Assembly: GCA_003222895.1 (NCBI GenBank)
Contig: QHXI01000058.1
Coordinates: 1-64,000 of the forward strand
Length of the DNA stretch: 64,000 nt
Direction of reading: 5' to 3'
Source: Acidobacteriota bacterium
GTDB lineage: Bacteria; Acidobacteriota; Blastocatellia; Pyrinomonadales; Pyrinomonadaceae
Below are positions 13,693-63,216 of the stretch, one piece after another (within the stretch, counting starts at the first letter, position 1; every line of letters begins with the position of its first letter). Below the pieces are notes generated by a model. That model was not told where the DNA came from. It did no database searches and was given only the letters and a program-made list of their open reading frames with translations. The translations under genes and the position numbers were made by a program.

Positions 13693-14729
13693 GGTCAGGA
13701 TCAAAGATCTTGTGCGCCTGCGGTGCTCGTCAGTTTCTGCTTTCTGCTTTCTGCCTTCTGCTTTGCGCCTTCTGCTTTCAGCCTTCCGCCTCCGCCACCA
13801 CCTGGACTCGTCAACCATCAGGCACGATGGCCTGGCTCCGCTCAGTTTATTTTCTCGATCAAAATCGCGGCTGGGTTGCGGGCAGCAACGGCACTCTCTT
13901 GCAAACGACGGACGGCGGCGCAACCTGGAAGAAACTGCTGCCGCTGACACGCGACACACTGCAAGACGTTTACTTCGCGAATGAAAGAGTTGGCTGGCTG
14001 GTCGTCGAACGCGATCTGCTAAAGCTAAAAACGAATGATGAACCGCGATCCTATCTGTTGAAGACGGAAGACGGCGGTTTCAGTTGGCGACGCGTTTTTT
14101 TGAGGACGCCTGATGCTAACGTTCGCCTGGTACGCGCGATTTTTGCTGACAGCCAGCGCGGCTGGGTGTTTGGCGAGACTGGAATCGTCTTTGCGACACG
14201 CGATGGTGGCGAACATTGGGAGCGACAAGCTTCGCCAACCAAACATCTGCTGCTGGGCGGCGCATTCGTCGATTACGCGCACGTGTGGCTGGTGGGCGCG
14301 GGAGCAACAATCGTAAATACGAACGACGGCGGATTGACCTGGCAAAATGGAATCGTTCGCGATGACGCTAACGCTCGATTCAACTCGGCGAGCTTCGTCG
14401 GAAACAGCCTGGGATGGGCCGTCGGCGCCGCCGGAAGAATATTCACAACGATCGACGGCGGGCGAACCTGGTCACCGCAAAAATCCAATATCGATTCTGA
14501 TTTGCTCGACGTGAAATTCATTGATGCGAACGAAGGTTGGGTGGCCGGCAACGAAGGCTTGCTGCTTCATACCAACGATGGCGGCGCGCATTGGGCCGTT
14601 CAAACAAATGCAAGTTCACACGCGCTGCAACGCCTCTGCTTCGTAGATCGCGATCATGGTTGGGCCGTTGGTTTCGGCGGAACGATTTTGAAGTATGGCG
14701 TTGCCGAAGCACCAAGATTGAAGAGCTAA
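13656..14729 (+). CDS. YCF48/BNR-like beta-propeller exported protein
   Basis: This protein of about 357 residues consists of YCF48-like blades built around the motif GWAVG..G.I..T.DGG.TW, repeated six or seven times (for example GWVAGSNGTLLQTTDGGATW, and GWAVGFGGTILKYG at the end). YCF48 is a photosystem assembly factor in phototrophs; in other bacteria such propellers are exported proteins of unknown role. The N-terminus is unusual: ATG 13656 lies inside repeat B, and the hydrophobic export-like segment (LLSAFCLLLCAFCF) is encoded by a degenerate heptamer tract. TTG 13710 is an alternative start. It is separated from the export gene by the repeat. Confidence 0.75.
   Translation: MLWTINISPLRGGSGSKILCACGARQFLLSAFCLLLCAFCFQPSASATTWTRQPSGTMAWLRSVYFLDQNRGWVAGSNGTLLQTTDGGATWKKLLPLTRDTLQDVYFANERVGWLVVERDLLKLKTNDEPRSYLLKTEDGGFSWRRVFLRTPDANVRLVRAIFADSQRGWVFGETGIVFATRDGGEHWERQASPTKHLLLGGAFVDYAHVWLVGAGATIVNTNDGGLTWQNGIVRDDANARFNSASFVGNSLGWAVGAAGRIFTTIDGGRTWSPQKSNIDSDLLDVKFIDANEGWVAGNEGLLLHTNDGGAHWAVQTNASSHALQRLCFVDRDHGWAVGFGGTILKYGVAEAPRLKS
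13734..13791. repeat. Degenerate heptamer tract encoding the hydrophobic N-terminal segment
   Basis: Period-7 units TTTCTGC, TTTCTGC, CTTCTGC, TTTGCGC, CTTCTGC, TTTCAGC, CTTCCGC run consecutively inside the YCF48-like reading frame. Similar 7-bp-period tracts with other unit sequences occur about ten times in the window. Confidence 0.85.
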
Positions 14730-17129: not shown

Positions 17130-17140
17130 GAATCCGTGAA

Positions 17141-17170
17141 TAGTAAATGGTAAACGGTAAATCGTAAATC
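17141..17170. repeat. Heptamer tract upstream of lysS
   Basis: Units GTAAATG, GTAAACG, GTAAATC, GTAAATC lie just upstream of the lysS start, where its leader or promoter would be. Confidence 0.75.
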
Positions 17171-17219
17171 CACGAGCGCTGACATTTGCTCGTCAGGCTC
17201 ATTTTGATAACATCATCAC

Positions 17220-22348: not shown

Positions 22349-23461
22349 TTGAAATTCAAAGTAGCAATCGCCACGCTATTCGCAATTGGCGCCCTTGTAA
22401 TTTCGCCCTCGCTTGCGCGCGCGCAGGAAGGCGAACCTGTCGTCGTCGATGAGGTCATCGCTCAGGTTGATGACGGCATCGTCACGTTGTTGCAGCTGAA
22501 GCGCGAAATGAAAGAGCGCGTCGACACGCTGAAGCAAAACGGCATGTCCGAACAGCAGGCCAACGCGGAAGTTGAGAAGCACAAACCCGAGCTGATTGCG
22601 ACGCTCATCAACGAGCAGTTGCTCCTGCAGAAAGGCAAGGAACTCGAACTAACCCAGCGCGTTGAAGACGAAGTCAACAAGCGCATGCTCGCGGTGGCGA
22701 AAGAAAACAGCATCAAATCGATGGACCAGTTGTGCCAGGCGATGAAGCAAGCAGGATTGGATTGCGAGGACACGCGACGAACCATGCGTATCGAGATCAT
22801 GAAGCAGGCCGTAATGGAAAGCGAAGTCGATTCGAAACTTTTCTACGGTTTCAGCATGGTCGAACTGCACCAATATTTCGATGCGCACAAAGACAAATTT
22901 CTCAGGCCCGAATCTGTCGAACTCTCTGAAATCTTTCTTGGGTTGGCAGGTAAACCAGAGACCGACGTCAAAGCGCACGCCGATGAGTTGGTGAAACAGG
23001 TGCGCGGCGGCGCCGACTTCTGCACGCTGGCGGCGGCGTATTCAGAGCGACCGGCGGCCAATGGCCAGAAGCCTTGTAAGGTCGGATTGTTTCGCGTACC
23101 TGACCTGCGACCGGACATCGCCGGCGCAATCAAGAACGTAAAAACCGGCAGCATCAGCGATCCACTGAAAACCGATGAGGGTTATCAAATTCTGCGTGTC
23201 GATGTGCGCACGGCGGGCGCCAACACGCCGACGTTCAATGAGAACGATGTCCGCGGCGCGATGACCGAAGAGCGCTCAGGAAAGGCGCGCGAGGATTATC
23301 TGCAAGGCCTGCGCAACGAAGCCTACCTGAAGATCGCTGACAACTATAAAGATGCGGTCGAGCCGCTGCTGAAGATCGTGCCGCCTGCAGCCGCGACCAA
23401 GAAACCGCCAAAGCAGGACAAAGGCAAAGGCAAGATTCTCGGGATATTCCCGAAGCCGTGA
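22349..23461 (+). CDS. SurA/PpiC-type peptidyl-prolyl isomerase, exported
   Basis: This 370-residue periplasmic chaperone has a signal peptide (ATLFAIGALVISPSLARAQ), a SurA-like N-terminal helical domain (VVVDEVIAQVDDGIVTLLQL onward) and a parvulin domain at about residues 185-290 (VELSEIFLG, ADFCTLAAAYSERPAA, GLFRVPDLRPDI, GYQILRVD). It likely assists outer-membrane protein folding. The start is TTG 22349, chosen because AAAGGAG sits 9 bases upstream and the signal peptide begins there. It follows mfd and precedes an RqcP-like gene. Confidence 0.88.
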   Translation: MKFKVAIATLFAIGALVISPSLARAQEGEPVVVDEVIAQVDDGIVTLLQLKREMKERVDTLKQNGMSEQQANAEVEKHKPELIATLINEQLLLQKGKELELTQRVEDEVNKRMLAVAKENSIKSMDQLCQAMKQAGLDCEDTRRTMRIEIMKQAVMESEVDSKLFYGFSMVELHQYFDAHKDKFLRPESVELSEIFLGLAGKPETDVKAHADELVKQVRGGADFCTLAAAYSERPAANGQKPCKVGLFRVPDLRPDIAGAIKNVKTGSISDPLKTDEGYQILRVDVRTAGANTPTFNENDVRGAMTEERSGKAREDYLQGLRNEAYLKIADNYKDAVEPLLKIVPPAAATKKPPKQDKGKGKILGIFPKP

Positions 23462-23466
23462 AGAAG

Positions 23467-23520
23467 TAATGAGTCATGAGTGATGAGTATTGAGTATTGG
23501 CTCATCACTCATTACTTACG
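23467..23520. repeat. Heptamer tract with inverted half, before the S4 gene
   Basis: Units ATGAGTC, ATGAGTG, ATGAGTA, TTGAGTA are followed by ATCACTC, ATTACTT, so the tract is both tandem and partly palindromic. It ends directly at the ATG of the S4-domain gene. Confidence 0.85.
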
Positions 23521-29701: not shown

Positions 29702-29711
29702 AAACACAACG

Positions 29712-29787
29712 ATGAACGCGGAATGATGAACGGTGATTTAGATCAACGGCACTTAGCTCATCATTCATCGTTCCTCGTTCATCATTG
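29712..29787. repeat. Heptamer/palindrome tract between the two permease genes
   Basis: Units such as GATGAAC, GATGAAC on the left face CTCATCA, TTCATCG, TTCCTCG, TTCATCA on the right. The period is 7 bases and the halves are inverted copies, giving a long imperfect hairpin. Confidence 0.75.
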
Positions 29788-35204: not shown

Positions 35205-35266
35205 TGCGCTGCTCGTATAGACTCTACGAAAAGCAAGACGAAAACCGGAACGCGAGCATATCTGCA

Positions 35267-35295
35267 ACTGACAACGGACAACTGACTACTGACAA
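35267..35295. repeat. Heptamer tract between pta and the YkvA-like gene
   Basis: Units AACTGAC, AACGGAC, AACTGAC, TACTGAC repeat with a 7-base period and end immediately at the ATG of the + strand gene. Confidence 0.8.
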
Positions 35296-35841
35296 ATGAC
35301 CAGGAAATCGAAAGTCGAACTCAAGAGCCGCATGAAGAACCTGCTCATGTTCTTTCCGAACATGGTGATTCTTACGGCGCGCTTGATGGTCGATTCGCGC
35401 GTGCCGCGAACCGAGCGCGCGCTCTTTGCCGCCGCCCTGATTTACGCGATCATTCCGTTCGATTTCATTCCGGACATGATCCCGTTTGTGGGACAGATTG
35501 ACGATCTGTTTCTGATTTCGCTAACCGTACTTCGATTGATCGATCGCACCGACGACACCATCGTGCGCGAACATTGGCGCGGTGGCGGCGATATCGTGGC
35601 GCTCGTCGAATCTGCCGCGACTGTCGCGCCGCTGTTGATTCCGCGCCGTATCAGCCGTGTGCTGATTTCGAAAGTAAGGCCCACCGCGGAAGGCACTGGC
35701 CTCCTCGTGAACGCTTCGAAGTTTGAACCGTTGATGGTTGAGGTTCCGGAAAAAGGATCGGGCGAGGGTCAGCGCGATCGACTCAAAGACCTCAGCGAAG
35801 CCGGAAGGCGAGCCTCACGCGCCCGCCGTAAGAAAGCATAG
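35296..35841 (+). CDS. YkvA-family membrane protein (DUF1232)
   Basis: This 181-residue protein carries the DUF1232 core AALIYAIIPFDFIPDMIPF followed by VGQIDDLFLISLTVLRLI, the diagnostic motif of the YkvA family. One or two membrane-associated helices are likely. The function of the family is not established. The C-terminal region is basic and polar (RRASRARRKKA). It starts directly at the end of a heptamer tract with no clear ribosome-binding site other than the repeat itself. Confidence 0.85.
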   Translation: MTRKSKVELKSRMKNLLMFFPNMVILTARLMVDSRVPRTERALFAAALIYAIIPFDFIPDMIPFVGQIDDLFLISLTVLRLIDRTDDTIVREHWRGGGDIVALVESAATVAPLLIPRRISRVLISKVRPTAEGTGLLVNASKFEPLMVEVPEKGSGEGQRDRLKDLSEAGRRASRARRKKA

Positions 35842-51134: not shown

Positions 51135-52046
51135 ATGTCGCATCCAAAACCGAAATCGATTGTTGAAGATACGGAATTGAAGCAACGCGTCCGTGAATTC
51201 TGGCAGAAACATCCTTGTGGCTCAAAATTCAGCGACGCCGAAATCGGCACCCGTGAATTCTTCGATCGGGTCGAGCAGCATCGTTTCGAGAAGGAATGGC
51301 ACATCCCGCTGGCTGCTGATTTTGTCGCTGCAAAAGGGTTGCGGGTTTTGGAGATAGGCTGCGGAGTTGGAACTGATGGTCTGCAGTTTGCTCGCGCCGG
51401 CGCAATCTACACAGGTGTCGATTTGACTGACGCGGCAATCGAGTTGGCACGAAAAAACTTTGTTTCAGCCGCAATGCGCGGAGAGTTTCGCGTTGCCGAC
51501 GCCGAGCATCTTGATTTTCCGGACGAGGTTTTCGATCTGGCTTACTCGCATGGTGTGTTGCATCACACGCCGGACATTCAAGCGGCGGTGCGCGAAATTC
51601 ATCGCGTTTTGAAACCGGGCGGCCGCGCGATCGTGATGTTGTATCATCGCGGCAGTTACAACTATCGCGTCGGCATTCGCGTGCTGCGACGCGCCGGCGC
51701 AGGATTGTTAAGAACGGAAGGTGGAATAAGAATCGTAAACCGTTTGACGGGAGAGCCAGTGGAATCGCTGCGAGAACATGCCGCGTCGCTGCGAAACGCG
51801 AACCGACCGTTCTCTTCCGCTGAACTGCTAAACCAAAGCACTGACGGCGCGGGCAATCCTCTGGCGCGCGTTTATTCGCGACGCGAGGCGCGCGAACTCT
51901 TCAAAGATTTTCGTGAAGTCGAACTGCGCGCGTATTTTCTCAACAAGCGTTTCATTCCATTGCTTGGTAATCTGCTGCCGCGTTCGATCGAGTCGGCGCT
52001 GGCATCGCGCTGGGGCTGGCATTTGTGGATTTATGCGAGGAAGTAG
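51135..52046 (+). CDS. Class I SAM-dependent methyltransferase
   Basis: This 303-residue enzyme has motif I in LRVLEIGCGVGTDGLQFARA and the following motifs YTGVDLTDAAIELARKNF, DFPDEVFDLAYSHGVLHHTP and VLKPGGRAIVMLYH. It belongs to the methyltransferase 11/25 group, common in polysaccharide clusters. The first ATG in frame, 51135, is used. It is the first gene of the second polysaccharide block and is divergent from the MoaD-like gene. Its substrate is unknown. Confidence 0.88.
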   Translation: MSHPKPKSIVEDTELKQRVREFWQKHPCGSKFSDAEIGTREFFDRVEQHRFEKEWHIPLAADFVAAKGLRVLEIGCGVGTDGLQFARAGAIYTGVDLTDAAIELARKNFVSAAMRGEFRVADAEHLDFPDEVFDLAYSHGVLHHTPDIQAAVREIHRVLKPGGRAIVMLYHRGSYNYRVGIRVLRRAGAGLLRTEGGIRIVNRLTGEPVESLREHAASLRNANRPFSSAELLNQSTDGAGNPLARVYSRREARELFKDFREVELRAYFLNKRFIPLLGNLLPRSIESALASRWGWHLWIYARK

Positions 52047-52126
52047 CTATCAGCATTCAGCTATCAGCGTTCAGCAAGTATTTGCTGGGCGCCTTTGCTG
52101 AAAGCTGAGAACTGAAAGCTCACGGC
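52047..52126. repeat. Heptamer tract before the epimerase gene
   Basis: Units TATCAGC, ATTCAGC, TATCAGC, GTTCAGC at the left, then units such as TGAAAGC and TGAAAGC facing them on the right, give a 7-base period with inverted halves. It ends 4 bases before the epimerase ATG. Confidence 0.8.
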
Positions 52127-52130
52127 TCTT

Positions 52131-53356: not shown

Positions 53357-54133
53357 ATGGCCACCGTTGTAAACACCGACTCGCTGCCTCGCGAAATGCA
53401 GCAGCACACCTACTCGATCATGTACGAGGTCGAGGAGAAGCATTGGTGGTTTTACGGACGACGCAAAATCATCGAAAGCTTCGTCGAAAAAATTTGTCAT
53501 GGCATTGCCAAGCACCCGCCACGCATCCTCGATGTCGGTTGCGGGACGGGCGCGAATCTGCAGATGCTTTCGCAATTCGGCGCCGCCGAAGGTGTCGATG
53601 TCTCGAGCGAAGCATTGGAATTCTGTCGCGCGCGTGGCCTGGCGGAAGTAAAGCAGGGCGCGGCGGAAACTCTGCCGTACGAAGACGCGTCGTTTGATCT
53701 CGTCACCGGGCTTGATGTAGTCGAACATCTCGACGATGACTTGTCTGGCTTGCGCGAAATGCGTCGAGTGTTGCGGCCCGGCGGTCGCGCGCTTTTGTTC
53801 GTGCCGGCGTTCATGTTTCTTTGGGGAGTGCAGGATGACATTAGTCATCACCGGCGCCGCTATACGCTGCGAGAACTGAAACAGCGAGTTACTGATGCGG
53901 GATTGTCGATCGAGCGCGCCACCTATGCGAACATAAGTTTCTTTCTGCCGATCTTAATCGGGAGACTCTTGATGCGCGTAACGCGAATTCGCCCGTCGTC
54001 CGAAAACAACATTACGATTGGCGCGGTGAATGGTTTGCTGGGAAGAATTCTCGGCGCCGAAGGCTGGTGGTTACAGCGAATGAACTTTCCATTCGGTGTT
54101 TCGATTGTTTGTGTGGCGAGAAGAGACAACTGA
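53357..54133 (+). CDS. Class I SAM-dependent methyltransferase
   Basis: This 258-residue methyltransferase has motif I in RILDVGCGTGANLQML and the downstream motifs GVDVSSEALEFCRARGL, YEDASFDLVTGLDVVEHLDDD and VLRPGGRALLFVPAFMFLWG. It starts at the first base after the previous stop and overlaps the next gene by one base (TGATG). Together with the flanking genes it is likely to modify a polysaccharide precursor or lipid-linked intermediate. Confidence 0.9.
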   Translation: MATVVNTDSLPREMQQHTYSIMYEVEEKHWWFYGRRKIIESFVEKICHGIAKHPPRILDVGCGTGANLQMLSQFGAAEGVDVSSEALEFCRARGLAEVKQGAAETLPYEDASFDLVTGLDVVEHLDDDLSGLREMRRVLRPGGRALLFVPAFMFLWGVQDDISHHRRRYTLRELKQRVTDAGLSIERATYANISFFLPILIGRLLMRVTRIRPSSENNITIGAVNGLLGRILGAEGWWLQRMNFPFGVSIVCVARRDN

Positions 54134-55152
54134 TGAAACTCTACGACGAGACACAACTCACTCTGCATAACGAACCGGCGGCGCGCGTTCAAACGCCTGA
54201 AATCTCGGTTTTTCTGCCGGTTTTCAACGAAGAGCCGAATCTGCGGCCGCTGCATAAAAAGTTAACTCAGGCGCTGGTTCAACTCGGGCGCAGCGCGGAA
54301 ATAATTTATGTCGATGACGGGTCGAGCGATCGCAGTCTGGACATTCTGCGCGAGATCGCGGCGAACGATCCGCACGTGAAGGTGATCGCCTTGCGAAGAA
54401 ATTACGGTCAAACGCCCGCAATGGCCGCGGGCATTCATGCCGCGAGAGGAAAAGTTTTGATTCCGATGGACGCCGATCTGCAAAACGATCCGGCGGACAT
54501 TGGGCGGCTGCTGGACAAGCTCGACGAAGGTTACGACGTAGTTTCCGGTTGGCGAAAGAACCGACAGGACAAACTGATCACCCGGAAGATTCCGTCGATG
54601 ATTGCGAACCGGATGATTTCGTGGATCGGCGGCGTGCCGCTGCACGATTATGGTTGTTCGCTGAAAGCTTATCGCCGCGAATCCCTGGCAGACGTGCAGC
54701 TCTACGGTGAGATGCATCGTTTCATTCCGATTTACGCATCGTGGTCCGGCGCGCGCGTTACCGAAATTCCCGTCGAGCATCACGCCCGCACGATGGGCAA
54801 ATCGAAATACGGATTGTCGCGCACGATCAAAGTCATCTTCGATCTAATGACGATCAAGTTCATGGCGTCGTATCAGACAAAGCCGCTTTACATGTTCGGC
54901 TTTGCGGGACTGACGACGTTCGCGATTTCGCTGCTGTGCGCGGCGTTTGCGTTCCTGATGAAGTTCGCCAACTGGCCACACCATGCCGACTTTATTCAGA
55001 CGCCGCTGCCGGTGTTGACGATGGTCCTGCTCGTTTTGGGCGTCCAGTTTTTCTTCATGGGTTTGCTGGCAGAGATGCTGGTGCGGACTTACCACGAGTC
55101 GCAGTCAAAACCGATTTATGCGGTCCGCGAAAAGATCGGTTTCGAGAAATAA
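54133..55152 (+). CDS. Family 2 glycosyltransferase, membrane-anchored (GtrB/DPM1-like)
   Basis: This 339-residue enzyme transfers a sugar to a polyprenyl phosphate or membrane acceptor. It has the GT-A catalytic domain: SVFLPVFNEEPNLRPLHKKL, VDDGSSDRS, IPMDADLQNDPADIG (DxD-type metal site) and VSGWRKNRQDKLITRKIPS. Two transmembrane helices follow in the C-terminal part (FAGLTTFAISLLCAAFAFL and VLTMVLLVLGVQFFFMGLL), as in ArnC/GtrB proteins. The start overlaps the methyltransferase stop; the upstream in-frame extension is rejected. Confidence 0.93.
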   Translation: MKLYDETQLTLHNEPAARVQTPEISVFLPVFNEEPNLRPLHKKLTQALVQLGRSAEIIYVDDGSSDRSLDILREIAANDPHVKVIALRRNYGQTPAMAAGIHAARGKVLIPMDADLQNDPADIGRLLDKLDEGYDVVSGWRKNRQDKLITRKIPSMIANRMISWIGGVPLHDYGCSLKAYRRESLADVQLYGEMHRFIPIYASWSGARVTEIPVEHHARTMGKSKYGLSRTIKVIFDLMTIKFMASYQTKPLYMFGFAGLTTFAISLLCAAFAFLMKFANWPHHADFIQTPLPVLTMVLLVLGVQFFFMGLLAEMLVRTYHESQSKPIYAVREKIGFEK

Positions 55153-55153
55153 C

Positions 55154-55719
55154 TGTAGGGGCAGGGCTTGTCCCTGCCCGTTCATGCATCAATGACTTTC
55201 GACAAAGAGACCCACACACGTCGAAACAGCCTGCGGCTAAGGGGCTTTGACTACTCATGGCCTCGCATCTATTTCGTTACAATCAATGCCGCAAACCGTC
55301 GCTCGATCTTTAATGACTCTCGCGTTGCTTTGGCGACCATTGATTGCTTGAAGCAGTTACGAGGAACACTGGGATTTACTGTTTATGTGTTTTGCCTGAT
55401 GCCAGACCACTTCCATGCACTAATAGGGCCGGGTGCTTCAAACCAATCGCTCGGACAAATTTGCGGAAGCTTCAAGAGCATTTCGACTCGCCGTTTTTGG
55501 CGCTGGTACGACGGCAAACTGTGGCACCGACAATTCTACGATCACATTATTCGCAATCGCGAGGATTTTGATGAAACGCTCGCTTACATTCGGATGAATC
55601 CCGTGCGACGCGGATTGGTTACCCGACTGGAAGGCTGGCCGTATACAGAGCGACTCGATTATTTGCACTTACTGCAGGCGGCGATGGAAGCGCGGGCAGG
55701 GACAAGCCCTGCCCCTACA
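55154..55719. mobile_element. RAYT element bounded by inverted REP copies
   Basis: The REPs at 55154-55180 and 55693-55719 are identical over 27 bases in inverted orientation. Each is itself a hairpin with the core GGGCAGGGCTTGTCCCTGCCC. Between them lies a Y1-type REP-associated tyrosine transposase gene. The right REP is inside the 3' end of that gene, so the last residues (RAGTSPAPTE) are encoded by the repeat. The element sits between two genes of the second polysaccharide block, immediately before asnB. Confidence 0.92.
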
Positions 55720-55725
55720 GAATAA
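55192..55725 (+). CDS. REP-associated tyrosine transposase (RAYT)
   Basis: This 177-residue single-strand DNA transposase has the HUH motif H73FH75 in MPDHFHAL and the catalytic tyrosine Y132 in YIRMNPVRRGL, within the conserved RAYT region WHRQFYDHIIRNREDF. It is related to IS200/IS605 TnpA. ATG 55192 is chosen; an earlier TTG start lies in the left REP. The gene is on the same strand as its neighbours and read with them. It could mobilise the REP elements that flank it; whether it also moves the other families in this window is unknown. Confidence 0.93.
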   Translation: MTFDKETHTRRNSLRLRGFDYSWPRIYFVTINAANRRSIFNDSRVALATIDCLKQLRGTLGFTVYVFCLMPDHFHALIGPGASNQSLGQICGSFKSISTRRFWRWYDGKLWHRQFYDHIIRNREDFDETLAYIRMNPVRRGLVTRLEGWPYTERLDYLHLLQAAMEARAGTSPAPTE

Positions 55726-55729
55726 GTGT

Positions 55730-57661
55730 ATGTGTGGAATAACCGGTTGGGCCAATCTCGATCCGCGCACGTCGCCGCCTGAAGGCGCTGAAGAACTCCT
55801 GCGTTCGATGTGCGACCGCATGACTCATCGCGGGCCTGACTCGGAAGGTTATCTGCTCAACAATGGAATCGCACTCGGCATGAGGCGTCTGGCGATTATC
55901 GATCTACTGACCGGCGAGCAACCAACTTTCAACGAAGATCACAGCGTCGCCGTGGTCCTGAACGGCGAGATCTATAATTATCGCGAGTTGCGCGCCGACC
56001 TCGAAACTCGCGGCCATTCATTTCGCAGCGAATCAGACACAGAAGTTCTTCCGCATCTATACGAAGAACATGGCCGCGACATGGTCGACCGTCTGAACGG
56101 CATGTTTGCGTTCGCCCTATGGGATAAACGCAACCGCCGTCTGTTCATCGCACGCGATCGCTTCGGCGAGAAGCCTCTTTATTGGGGCGTGTTCGATAAC
56201 ACTCTGCTGTTTGCTTCCGAGCCGAAGGTCTTACTAGCGCATCCAGCCGTGCGGCCCAATCTCAATCTGAACGCGCTGCGGCAGTATCTCTCGTTCGATT
56301 ATGTGCCCGCGCCGCTTTCGATCTACGAAGGCATCAGCAAACTTCCAGCCGCGCATACGCTCACGCTGGAAGACGGGAAAATCAAAGTCGAGCGCTATTG
56401 GAAGCTGAGTTACCAGACGCGCCAACCAGTGCCCAGCGTGTCGGAAGCCGCGGAACAACTGCGCGAGTTGCTCGCTGATTCTGTCCGCATGCGCCTGGTA
56501 TCTGACGTGCCGCTGGGAGTTTTGCTTTCGGGTGGAATTGACTCGTCGCTGGTGACCGCGCTCGCGGTGCGCGCGTCAACCGAAACGGTCAAGACGTTTT
56601 CGATCTCATTTGCGGAAAGCTCGTTCGATGAATCGCAATACGCGCGCGCGGTTGCGAAGTTTCTCGGCACCGATCATCACGAAGAAAGATTCAGCGCAAG
56701 TTTAGCTGCGAATCTCGTGGGCGAAATCGGCGCGTGGATGGACGAGCCGATCAGCGATCCTTCGGTCGTGCCGACTTATCTCTTGTCACGCTTCACGCGG
56801 AAACATGTAACGGTTGCGCTCGGCGGCGATGGCGGCGACGAAATCTTTGCCGGCTATCCGATGTACTTTGGTCATCACATGGCGCGCGCGTATCTGCGCG
56901 TCCCTAAGTTTCTACGTCGCGGGATCGTCGAACCAATGGTTAACCTCTTGCCGGTCAAGACGAAGAATCTTTCTTTCGATTATCGCGCGCGGCGTTTCAT
57001 CAGCGCTTCGCATTACGACGAAGTCGCGCGGCATCATGTCTGGTTTGGATCATTCACGCCCAATGATACCGAGCAGTTACTTACTGAAGATGTGAAGCGC
57101 GCCAGCGAGTCCGACATTTATCGCGACGCGCGGCGACTGTTTGCCGAGTGCGATTCGACCAACCTGATCGAGTGCATGCAAAGTCTCGATACGCAGTTCT
57201 ATCTCGCTGAAGACATCCTGACGAAAGTCGATCGCGCCAGCATGGCCGTGAGTTTGGAAGTGCGCGCCCCCTATCTCGATCCGCGCGTGGCCGAATTCGC
57301 GGCGTCGCTGCCATCGTGGTACAAGCTGCATGGTTACACTTCGAAATATATTTTGAAGAAGGCCGCGAAAGGATTGGTGCCGCCGTTTGTTTGGCGTCGA
57401 GGCAAGAAAGGTTTCGGTGTTCCGTTCGCGAAATGGTTGAAGAATGAACTGCGTCCGCTCGCGCATGATCTGCTTTCCCGCGAGCGTCTGCGCCGCAGTG
57501 GAATTTTCGATCCAGCCTATGTCGCTGGTCTGCAGGATGAGCACGAGCGCGGCATCGCGAATCATCGCAAGCTGCTTTGGACCCTTCTTTCATTTGAGCT
57601 CTGGCGTGAAAGCTTTGTCGAGACCCCGAAGCGAATCGAGACCTCGGTTACGGCGAGTTGA
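55730..57661 (+). CDS. asnB: Asparagine synthase (glutamine-hydrolysing), polysaccharide-locus type
   Basis: This 643-residue enzyme has an N-terminal glutaminase domain with the catalytic C2 (MCGITGWAN) and RGPDSEGY, GEIYNYRELR, and a C-terminal synthetase domain with LLSGGIDSSLVTALAVRAST. It follows a pattern seen in exosortase-linked polysaccharide loci (amidotransferase 1 type), where such a protein may amidate sugar acids rather than make free asparagine. It begins 5 bases after the RAYT stop, so the transposon insertion is close to its start. Confidence 0.9.
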   Translation: MCGITGWANLDPRTSPPEGAEELLRSMCDRMTHRGPDSEGYLLNNGIALGMRRLAIIDLLTGEQPTFNEDHSVAVVLNGEIYNYRELRADLETRGHSFRSESDTEVLPHLYEEHGRDMVDRLNGMFAFALWDKRNRRLFIARDRFGEKPLYWGVFDNTLLFASEPKVLLAHPAVRPNLNLNALRQYLSFDYVPAPLSIYEGISKLPAAHTLTLEDGKIKVERYWKLSYQTRQPVPSVSEAAEQLRELLADSVRMRLVSDVPLGVLLSGGIDSSLVTALAVRASTETVKTFSISFAESSFDESQYARAVAKFLGTDHHEERFSASLAANLVGEIGAWMDEPISDPSVVPTYLLSRFTRKHVTVALGGDGGDEIFAGYPMYFGHHMARAYLRVPKFLRRGIVEPMVNLLPVKTKNLSFDYRARRFISASHYDEVARHHVWFGSFTPNDTEQLLTEDVKRASESDIYRDARRLFAECDSTNLIECMQSLDTQFYLAEDILTKVDRASMAVSLEVRAPYLDPRVAEFAASLPSWYKLHGYTSKYILKKAAKGLVPPFVWRRGKKGFGVPFAKWLKNELRPLAHDLLSRERLRRSGIFDPAYVAGLQDEHERGIANHRKLLWTLLSFELWRESFVETPKRIETSVTAS

Positions 57662-61692: not shown

Positions 61693-63141
61693 ATGATCGC
61701 CTGGATTCCCGATCTTTTTTACCTCAACCGCCGTTTCGAAGGCGGCGTCGCGCTCGTTTGTGATGAAGCTGGCACGATCGCGAGGGTCGCGCCGGTTGAA
61801 GAATTACGAGACGAAAAAAAAATAAATCTGCCGCGCCGCGCGATTCTTCCGGGTATGGTAAACGCGCACTCGCATGTCTTTCAACGAGTCATTCGCGGAA
61901 AGACTGAGCATCGGACTTCCCAGCGAGATAGTTTTTGGAGCTGGCGCGAGATGATGTATTCGGCGGCCACGCGCCTGAAACCCGAAGACATTTATGACGT
62001 GTCGCGCATGGCCTTTCTCGAAATGGCTTTGAGTGGAATCACCGCGGTCGGCGAGTTTCACTATCTGCATCACGCTCCCGACGGAAAACCTTACGACGAT
62101 CCAAATCTGCTCGCGAAGGAAGTCATCCGCGCGGCAGGCGATATGGGATTAAGGATTGCGCTGCTGAGAGTGGCGTACGCACGATCAGGCTTTGAGACTG
62201 AAGCGAATCCGAAGCAGTTTCGGTTTATTGAAGCTGATTCTGAAATTTATTTACGGAACCTGGAAACGCTGGCGAAGAGTGTCAGAAGCCCGACCGTGAG
62301 GGAGGGCAAGCTAACGAATCAGGCCCTCGCTGACGCACGGGCTTCTGACACAGTTTGGATCGGCATCGCTCCGCACAGCATCCGCGCCGTTCCGTTGCCT
62401 TACTCAAAGGAAGTCGTCGCGTACGCAGACGAACACGATTTGAAAGTTCACATGCACGTCGCCGAACAGCCGGCGGAAGTCTCAGCCTGCATCGAAGAAC
62501 ACGGGCGCACGCCGGTTGCTTTGCTCGTAACAGAAGGTTTGCTGAGCGAACGATTCACCGCGGTGCACGCGATTCACGTCACGCCGAAAGCTATTCCGTC
62601 ATTCGCAAGGACGGGCGCGATGGTTTGTGCCTGTCCGACGACTGAGCGGAATCTCGGCGATGGCGTCGTGCCCGCAGAGGAATATCTGAAGAACGGCGTC
62701 GCGATTTGTCTGGGCACCGACAGCCACACCCAAATCGATCTTCTGGAAGACGCGCGCGAGCTTGAATATCACTTGCGCTTGCAGAAGCTGGAGCGCGCGG
62801 TGCTCGATCACCAGTCTCAAGTCTCAAGTCTCAAGTCTCAAGCGTTGGCTTCGCTTCTCTTTGATTGCGCGACTGTCAACGGCGCGCGCAGCATCGGCGC
62901 ACCGAGCGGATCGCTGGAAGCCGGCAAACCGGCAGATTTCTTTACTCTCGATCTCGACGATCCGTCCGTTGCGGGCGCATCAACTGATGATTTACTGCCG
63001 GCGATTGTTTTTTCGTCATCACGCGCGGCCATGCGCGAAGTCGTGGTGAGCGGAAAGCCGATCGTTTCTGAAGGGCAGCATCTGATTCAGGAAGAAGTCG
63101 TCGAGAGGTTTACCGAGTTGCAGAAAAGGTTGTGGAGTTGA
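61693..63141 (+). CDS. hutF: Formimidoylglutamate deiminase (HutF-like) amidohydrolase
   Basis: This 482-residue TIM-barrel amidohydrolase has metal-binding H59xH61 in VNAHSHVFQRVIRGKTEH, the FWSWREMMY signature, VHMHVAEQPAEV, and the late LGTDSHTQIDLLED. This fits HutF, which deaminates N-formimidoyl-L-glutamate in histidine degradation. Two in-frame repeats add peptide: a family D palindrome at residues 197-220 (VRSPTVREGKLTNQALADAR) and a heptamer tract at residues 374-384 (QSQVSSLKSQA). The catalytic motifs are kept, so activity is possible. Confidence 0.85.
   Translation: MIAWIPDLFYLNRRFEGGVALVCDEAGTIARVAPVEELRDEKKINLPRRAILPGMVNAHSHVFQRVIRGKTEHRTSQRDSFWSWREMMYSAATRLKPEDIYDVSRMAFLEMALSGITAVGEFHYLHHAPDGKPYDDPNLLAKEVIRAAGDMGLRIALLRVAYARSGFETEANPKQFRFIEADSEIYLRNLETLAKSVRSPTVREGKLTNQALADARASDTVWIGIAPHSIRAVPLPYSKEVVAYADEHDLKVHMHVAEQPAEVSACIEEHGRTPVALLVTEGLLSERFTAVHAIHVTPKAIPSFARTGAMVCACPTTERNLGDGVVPAEEYLKNGVAICLGTDSHTQIDLLEDARELEYHLRLQKLERAVLDHQSQVSSLKSQALASLLFDCATVNGARSIGAPSGSLEAGKPADFFTLDLDDPSVAGASTDDLLPAIVFSSSRAAMREVVVSGKPIVSEGQHLIQEEVVERFTELQKRLWS
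62281..62351. repeat. Palindromic repeat family D inserted in frame in the HutF-like gene
   Basis: GTCAGAAGCCCGACCGTGAG faces GACGCACGGGCTTCTGACAC. It is 71 bases and does not disrupt the reading frame. A close copy is located intergenically at 63145-63216. Confidence 0.92.
62813..62841. repeat. Perfect heptamer tract inside the HutF-like gene
   Basis: AGTCTCA is repeated four times in tandem with one partial unit. It encodes QSQVSSLKSQ. It is the least degenerate of the heptamer tracts seen. Confidence 0.92.
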
Positions 63142-63144
63142 GTT

Positions 63145-63216
63145 GTGTCAGAAGCCCGACCGTTAGGGAGGGCCGGTCGCGTAAATTGCCCTCCCTGACG
63201 GTCGGGCTTCTGACAC
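63145..63216. repeat. Palindromic repeat family D, intergenic copy
   Basis: GTGTCAGAAGCCCGACCGTT (left) faces CCTGACGGTCGGGCTTCTGA and CAC (right). It fills the space between the HutF-like gene and argE, and could also act as a terminator hairpin. Confidence 0.92.

Follow-up and report, generated by a model that had tools for sequence, protein, structure and literature searches.

A REP-bounded RAYT gene between a GT2 glycosyltransferase gene and asnB in a Pyrinomonadaceae genome: a probable unit insertion

Results and Discussion

The locus

The DNA analysed here, called the window below, is a stretch of 64,000 nucleotides from an Acidobacteriota bacterium of the family Pyrinomonadaceae (assembly GCA_003222895.1, contig QHXI01000058.1, positions 1 to 64,000). 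Between a GT2 glycosyltransferase gene and an asparagine synthase gene, asnB, the window contains a unit at 55153-55720 that consists of a RAYT (REP-associated tyrosine transposase) gene within an inverted pair of GTAG-tagged REPs with exact arms of 28 nt. The features of the locus are:

54067..55152, + strand: GT2 glycosyltransferase gene, intact; its stop codon TAA (55150-55152) lies directly before the unit
55153..55180, + strand: left REP, with CT dinucleotide, GTAG tag (55155-55158), 8-bp stem and 5-nt loop
55168..55725, + strand: RAYT gene (Pfam Y1_Tnp, NCBIfam NF047646, PDB 4er8)
55408..55416, + strand: HUH motif H-F-H (H81-F-H83; codons CAC TTC CAT), from alignments with 4er8 and sister RAYTs
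55585..55587, + strand: codon of the predicted catalytic tyrosine (Y140 in the 185-aa ORF), which aligns with Tyr115 of 4er8
55693..55720, - strand: right REP, exact reverse complement of the left REP, inside the 3' end of the RAYT ORF
55730..57661, + strand: asnB, asparagine synthase gene, intact; its ATG lies 10 nt after the last base of the unit and 4 nt behind the RAYT stop

The left arm, CTGTAGGGGCAGGGCTTGTCCCTGCCCG, at 55153-55180 returned as its exact reverse complement at 55693-55720, which agrees with an earlier note on this DNA that had described a RAYT with inverted REPs on both sides and extends the arm given there (55154-55180) by one base. The 24-mer core of the REP matched twice in the window and not once in 100 shuffles. 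Both arms fold into a GTAG tag followed by an 8-bp perfect stem with a 5-nt loop, which is the published form of a REP (PMC2817692, PMC3733652), and CTGTAG is read at both ends of the unit, each on its own strand. The gene therefore has the two flanking inverted GTAG/GTGG-tagged REPs by which membership of the class is recognised.

The RAYT ORF encodes 185 aa from a TTG at 55168 that sits within the left REP, or 178 aa from an ATG at 55189, and stops at TAA 55723-55725. As the same note had observed, the right REP lies within the 3' end of the gene, because this copy reads past the stop point of its sister RAYTs; the REP encodes the tail ARAGTSPAPT, which is not conserved. The protein scored 109.5 bits against the NCBIfam model REP_Tyr_transpos (NF047646; cut-off 80) and 21.6 bits against TnpA_IS200 (NF033573; cut-off 55), its Pfam match was Y1_Tnp, and its nearest PDB relative was TnpA_REP (4er8, E 4e-10). 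The HUH motif and the catalytic tyrosine are intact by alignment and are kept in the sister RAYTs. Third-position GC was 55% in the RAYT gene and 64-67% in its neighbours. The gene is single copy, with the next match in the genome only 38% identical, and elsewhere the genome has two REP_Tyr_transpos-like genes (one above the cut-off, the other slightly below it) and an IS200-like gene. Based on these sequence features, we concluded that the gene is a RAYT and that the unit is, by every testable feature, a REPtron.

The insertion site

Both neighbours were full length by Pfam and by orthologue alignment, and the earlier statement that the unit breaks neither gene thus stands. The gaps between the 28-nt arms and the genes are 0 nt on the GT2 side and 9 nt on the asnB side, and since the unit fills the space from the GT2 stop to 9 nt before the asnB ATG, the inserted segment runs from REP to REP within the available resolution. 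The three genes are co-directional and the RAYT stop falls 4 nt before the asnB ATG, so that the RAYT is probably transcribed with the operon and the operon left continuous.

Synteny of GT2 and asnB is kept across the host family. Wherever the gap was readable, which was the case for the five congeners that have a GT2 orthologue and for about a dozen genera besides, neither a RAYT nor a REP was found between the two genes, and a search for the empty site in relatives, proposed in the earlier note, thus returned GT2-asnB without the unit. The spacing in relatives was mostly 15-160 bp, with four cases of 300-970 bp of other DNA, and these spacers were too diverged for an exact pre-insertion site to be read from them. 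The insertion at GT2-asnB is common to no sampled relative.

Cognate REPINs and REPs without a RAYT

The same REP was found at only two further places in the 4.77-Mb draft genome, both of them REPINs, one of 69 bp between lpd and a pdhA-like gene (C138) and one of 73 bp between acpP and fabF (C151). The cognate REPs are therefore dispersed in the genome, as the earlier note had asked to be checked, but they are rare, with two REPINs and not tens to hundreds of copies. Both pairs are inverted REPs about 70 bp from end to end with a short spacer, which is the definition of a REPIN, and their length and arm symmetry agree with REPINs of the host family and with published ones (PMC3116915). The idea that REPIN spacers are captured target DNA was dropped, since further copies within a genome show related spacers and since spacers that vary in sequence but are set in length have already been described (PMC3116915).

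The two REPIN sites could also be compared among relatives. The acpP-fabF REPIN of the present genome (G000:C151:36411-36485; L010, L212) has a counterpart in the congener G003 (L080, L214) at the equal position with matching flanks, and the inverted alignment of the two scored 44 versus 30.5 for the direct one; judging from these alignments, the REPIN was apparently inverted in place between the congeners. In the lpd-pdhA gap, a REPIN of the same family occurs in two genera (G000:C138:15327-15397, L003, L242; G008:C264:4451-4520, L196, L252) in the same orientation and with similar spacers, representing either an old retained insertion or a hot spot. Longer REPINs of 127-135 bp were seen in G008:C120, G009:C88, and G048:C46 (L064, L060, L069), with a second small hairpin at their inner ends that resembles the inner ends of REPtron L016, and these may be internally deleted REPtrons.

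Some relatives carry the REPs with no cognate RAYT detected. Genome G011 (89% complete) has 56 REPs and no REP_Tyr_transpos match, G025 (91% complete) has 51 REPs and a single weak match far below the cut-off, and G008 (74% complete) has 61 REPs and likewise no RAYT over the cut-off. These three carry orphan REP populations; genome incompleteness could hide one RAYT, but is less likely to hide all three.

Sister REPtrons in the host family

Sister RAYTs, 45-62% identical to this one, were present in nine others of the 119 family genomes, each with a single copy, and sit at unrelated sites. Exact inverted arms of 15-37 nt surrounded six of the nine, as compared with a control of GT2 genes in 29 other genomes in which such arms were never longer than 14 nt. 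In G030, G048, G028, G018, G043, and G010 the RAYT lies between inverted GTAGGGGC REPs, and no clear exact inverted pair was found around the RAYTs of G022, G098, and G099. Stops flagged in the sister genes fall mostly at or after the gene end, and only the G010 copy looks broken. Beyond the RAYT itself, no neighbouring gene was common to any two of the ten REPtron loci, the residual cross-matches being 25-33% identical. The RAYT tree contradicts host taxonomy, with RAYTs of genus g17 grouping with those of other genera, and monophyly of three of the g17 RAYTs was rejected (AU p 4.2e-5).

The REPtrons of G030 and G048 end in the same REP 25-mer as the one described here, with identical arms, around RAYTs that are 62% and 56% identical to it. 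Identical ends therefore do not date an insertion, and the argument of the earlier note from identical ends to a recent element was not borne out. From these comparisons, the REP ends are kept identical by something other than youth.

Hairpins in the three intra-operon gaps

In relatives, the GT2-asnB, acpP-fabF, and lpd-pdhA gaps often hold another strong hairpin. A fold z of about -3 or lower was reached in roughly 10 of 16, 20 of 30, and 14 of 21 of these gaps, respectively, and in 8 of 44 generic co-directional gaps of 50-200 bp from the window and family contigs, counts that come from three loci in phylogenetically linked genomes with rough gene calls and two slightly different null models, and that include this genome's own REPIN for acpP-fabF and lpd-pdhA. 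The hairpins are of several kinds (REPIN, REPtron, other REP types, and heptad-periodic hairpins), and a lag-7 period was seen in about half of the gaps in relatives; in the window, there were five lag-7 clusters as against none expected, and no clusters at other lags. The plain reading is that intra-operon gaps tolerate hairpins. A tentative and rather doubtful extension is that these three gaps are intra-operon hairpin slots. Most species of the family would then have a strong hairpin at these positions, of different and unrelated make in each, and the REPtron would be one of several exchangeable occupants, retained or targeted because the position calls for or favours a hairpin. Such shared hairpin gaps could be used to examine whether selection in bacteria acts on the presence of a hairpin at a given position, whatever its sequence.

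Other repeats were seen alongside these. Heptad-periodic repeats occur in the window at 23461-23517, 29707-29787, and 52045-52127, and also at 13730-13772, 17135-17171, 35264-35302, and 62803-62849, as well as in relatives (L090, L094, L095, L097, L100, L102, L217, L223, L259). Many form long hairpins, and the heptamer varies by locus and species. They are possibly akin to the TAACTGA heptamer repeats (PMC4679880), but differ in having no one fixed heptamer and in being often inverted. The acpP-fabF gap of G005 (L213) holds a different REP-like hairpin, TGCGCACGCCTCCGGCGTGC, which is similar to the inverted repeats that flank a second type of RAYT in congeners (L035, L039). At 62279-62351 and 63145-63216 the window also has two 29-bp inverted repeats, GTGTCAGAAGCCCGACCGTNAGGGAGGGC, that are nearly identical and lie about 870 bp from each other; they belong to another dispersed hairpin family.

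Origin of the unit

The empty sites, together with a RAYT tree in conflict with the hosts, favour insertion of the REPtron as a unit, and we consider it probable that a single-copy RAYT and its cognate inverted REPs inserted as one REP-to-REP segment between GT2 and asnB in the lineage of this species. Neither a second copy of the unit in this genome nor an identical unit at two sites in any searched genome was found, and unit movement is for this reason deduced from absence elsewhere; the data favour movement or transfer of the REPtron, with no event observed directly. TnpA_REP recognises single-stranded GTAG-hairpins and cuts at the adjacent CT (PMC8266576). The RAYT described here has an HUH motif and a single tyrosine. 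It would likewise recognise the GTAG-hairpin of a single DNA strand, cleave beside it by way of a 5'-phosphotyrosine link at the CT that stands next to GTAG at both ends, and religate the DNA, and could in this way mobilise its own unit and the short REP pairs (REPINs), with the whole unit moving from REP to REP.

A possible but unlikely route is that the unit was acquired horizontally and recombined in between REPs or between flanking sequences, so that the gene was not transposed by the RAYT at all. It would fit the patchy distribution of RAYTs and their host-incongruent tree, as well as the published position that a REPtron does not relocate as a whole (PMC6006769), and the lower GC3 of the RAYT means that entry by horizontal transfer and homologous recombination could have taken the place of transposition. 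However, on either side the limit of the insertion lies no more than a few bases from the REP end, which a REP-to-REP event would predict, and there is no foreign flanking DNA; plasmids contained no related stretch, and viral contigs contained no exact copy of the REP. A broader contig scan with the RAYT returned only remote RAYTs of other phyla.

Far less probable is an ancestral REPtron, vertically inherited in the family and lost from GT2-asnB in the other species. The usual description of RAYTs is of stable, domesticated genes in single copy (PMC6006769), and there is one copy per genome here also, but such a history would require the unit to have been lost cleanly and independently from every congener and from the other genera, and it has to contend with REPtrons at different loci without common neighbours and with the conflict between the RAYT tree and the host genera. 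We find it scarcely credible that the gene is an ordinary IS200/IS605-type insertion sequence that landed among REPs, since, although it belongs to the same Y1 superfamily (Pfam Y1_Tnp), only the RAYT model scored above its cut-off, the gene is single copy where multiple near-identical copies would be expected, no tnpB is adjacent, and the ends are the REP itself.

Comparison with known systems

The unit shares with known REPtrons (PMC2817692, PMC3733652, PMC6006769) an HUH/Y1 transposase, inverted GTAG-tagged perfect-stem REPs on both sides, one gene per genome, and dispersed cognate REPs. It differs from them in a host family outside the well-studied Proteobacteria cases, in having only two extra REPINs in the genome, and in its position at a site that relatives have without the unit. 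This last difference is relevant to whether a REPtron can move as a whole. IS200/IS605 elements have a like catalytic domain and single-strand hairpin recognition, but the protein falls well below the cut-off of their model, has no tnpB, is not multicopy, and ends in REPs.

The REPINs of Pseudomonas fluorescens SBW25 (PMC3116915) are likewise inverted REPs of about 70 bp (69-74 bp here, 71 bp between the invariant 16-mers of GI REPINs there), with conserved arms and a less conserved spacer of near-constant length. In contrast to SBW25, the REP sequence is different, the copy number is very low, and RAYT-less relatives carry orphan REPIN populations. With E. coli TnpA_REP (PDB 4er8; PMC8266576) the RAYT shares the aligned HUH motif and tyrosine, a GTAG-tagged REP, and the CT beside the tag, whereas the E. 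coli REP stem has a bulge and the REP here has a perfect stem, as do the group 3 Stenotrophomonas REPs.

These comparisons bear on whether REPtrons ever move as units and on how REPs outlive their transposase, and the host family is a tractable case for both: it has a REPtron where relatives have an empty site, sister REPtrons that share one REP sequence and are incongruent with their hosts, and genomes rich in REPs that yielded no cognate RAYT. The kind of REPtron is already known and the host lineage is new, and what is notable is mainly that this one appears to have moved in as a unit.
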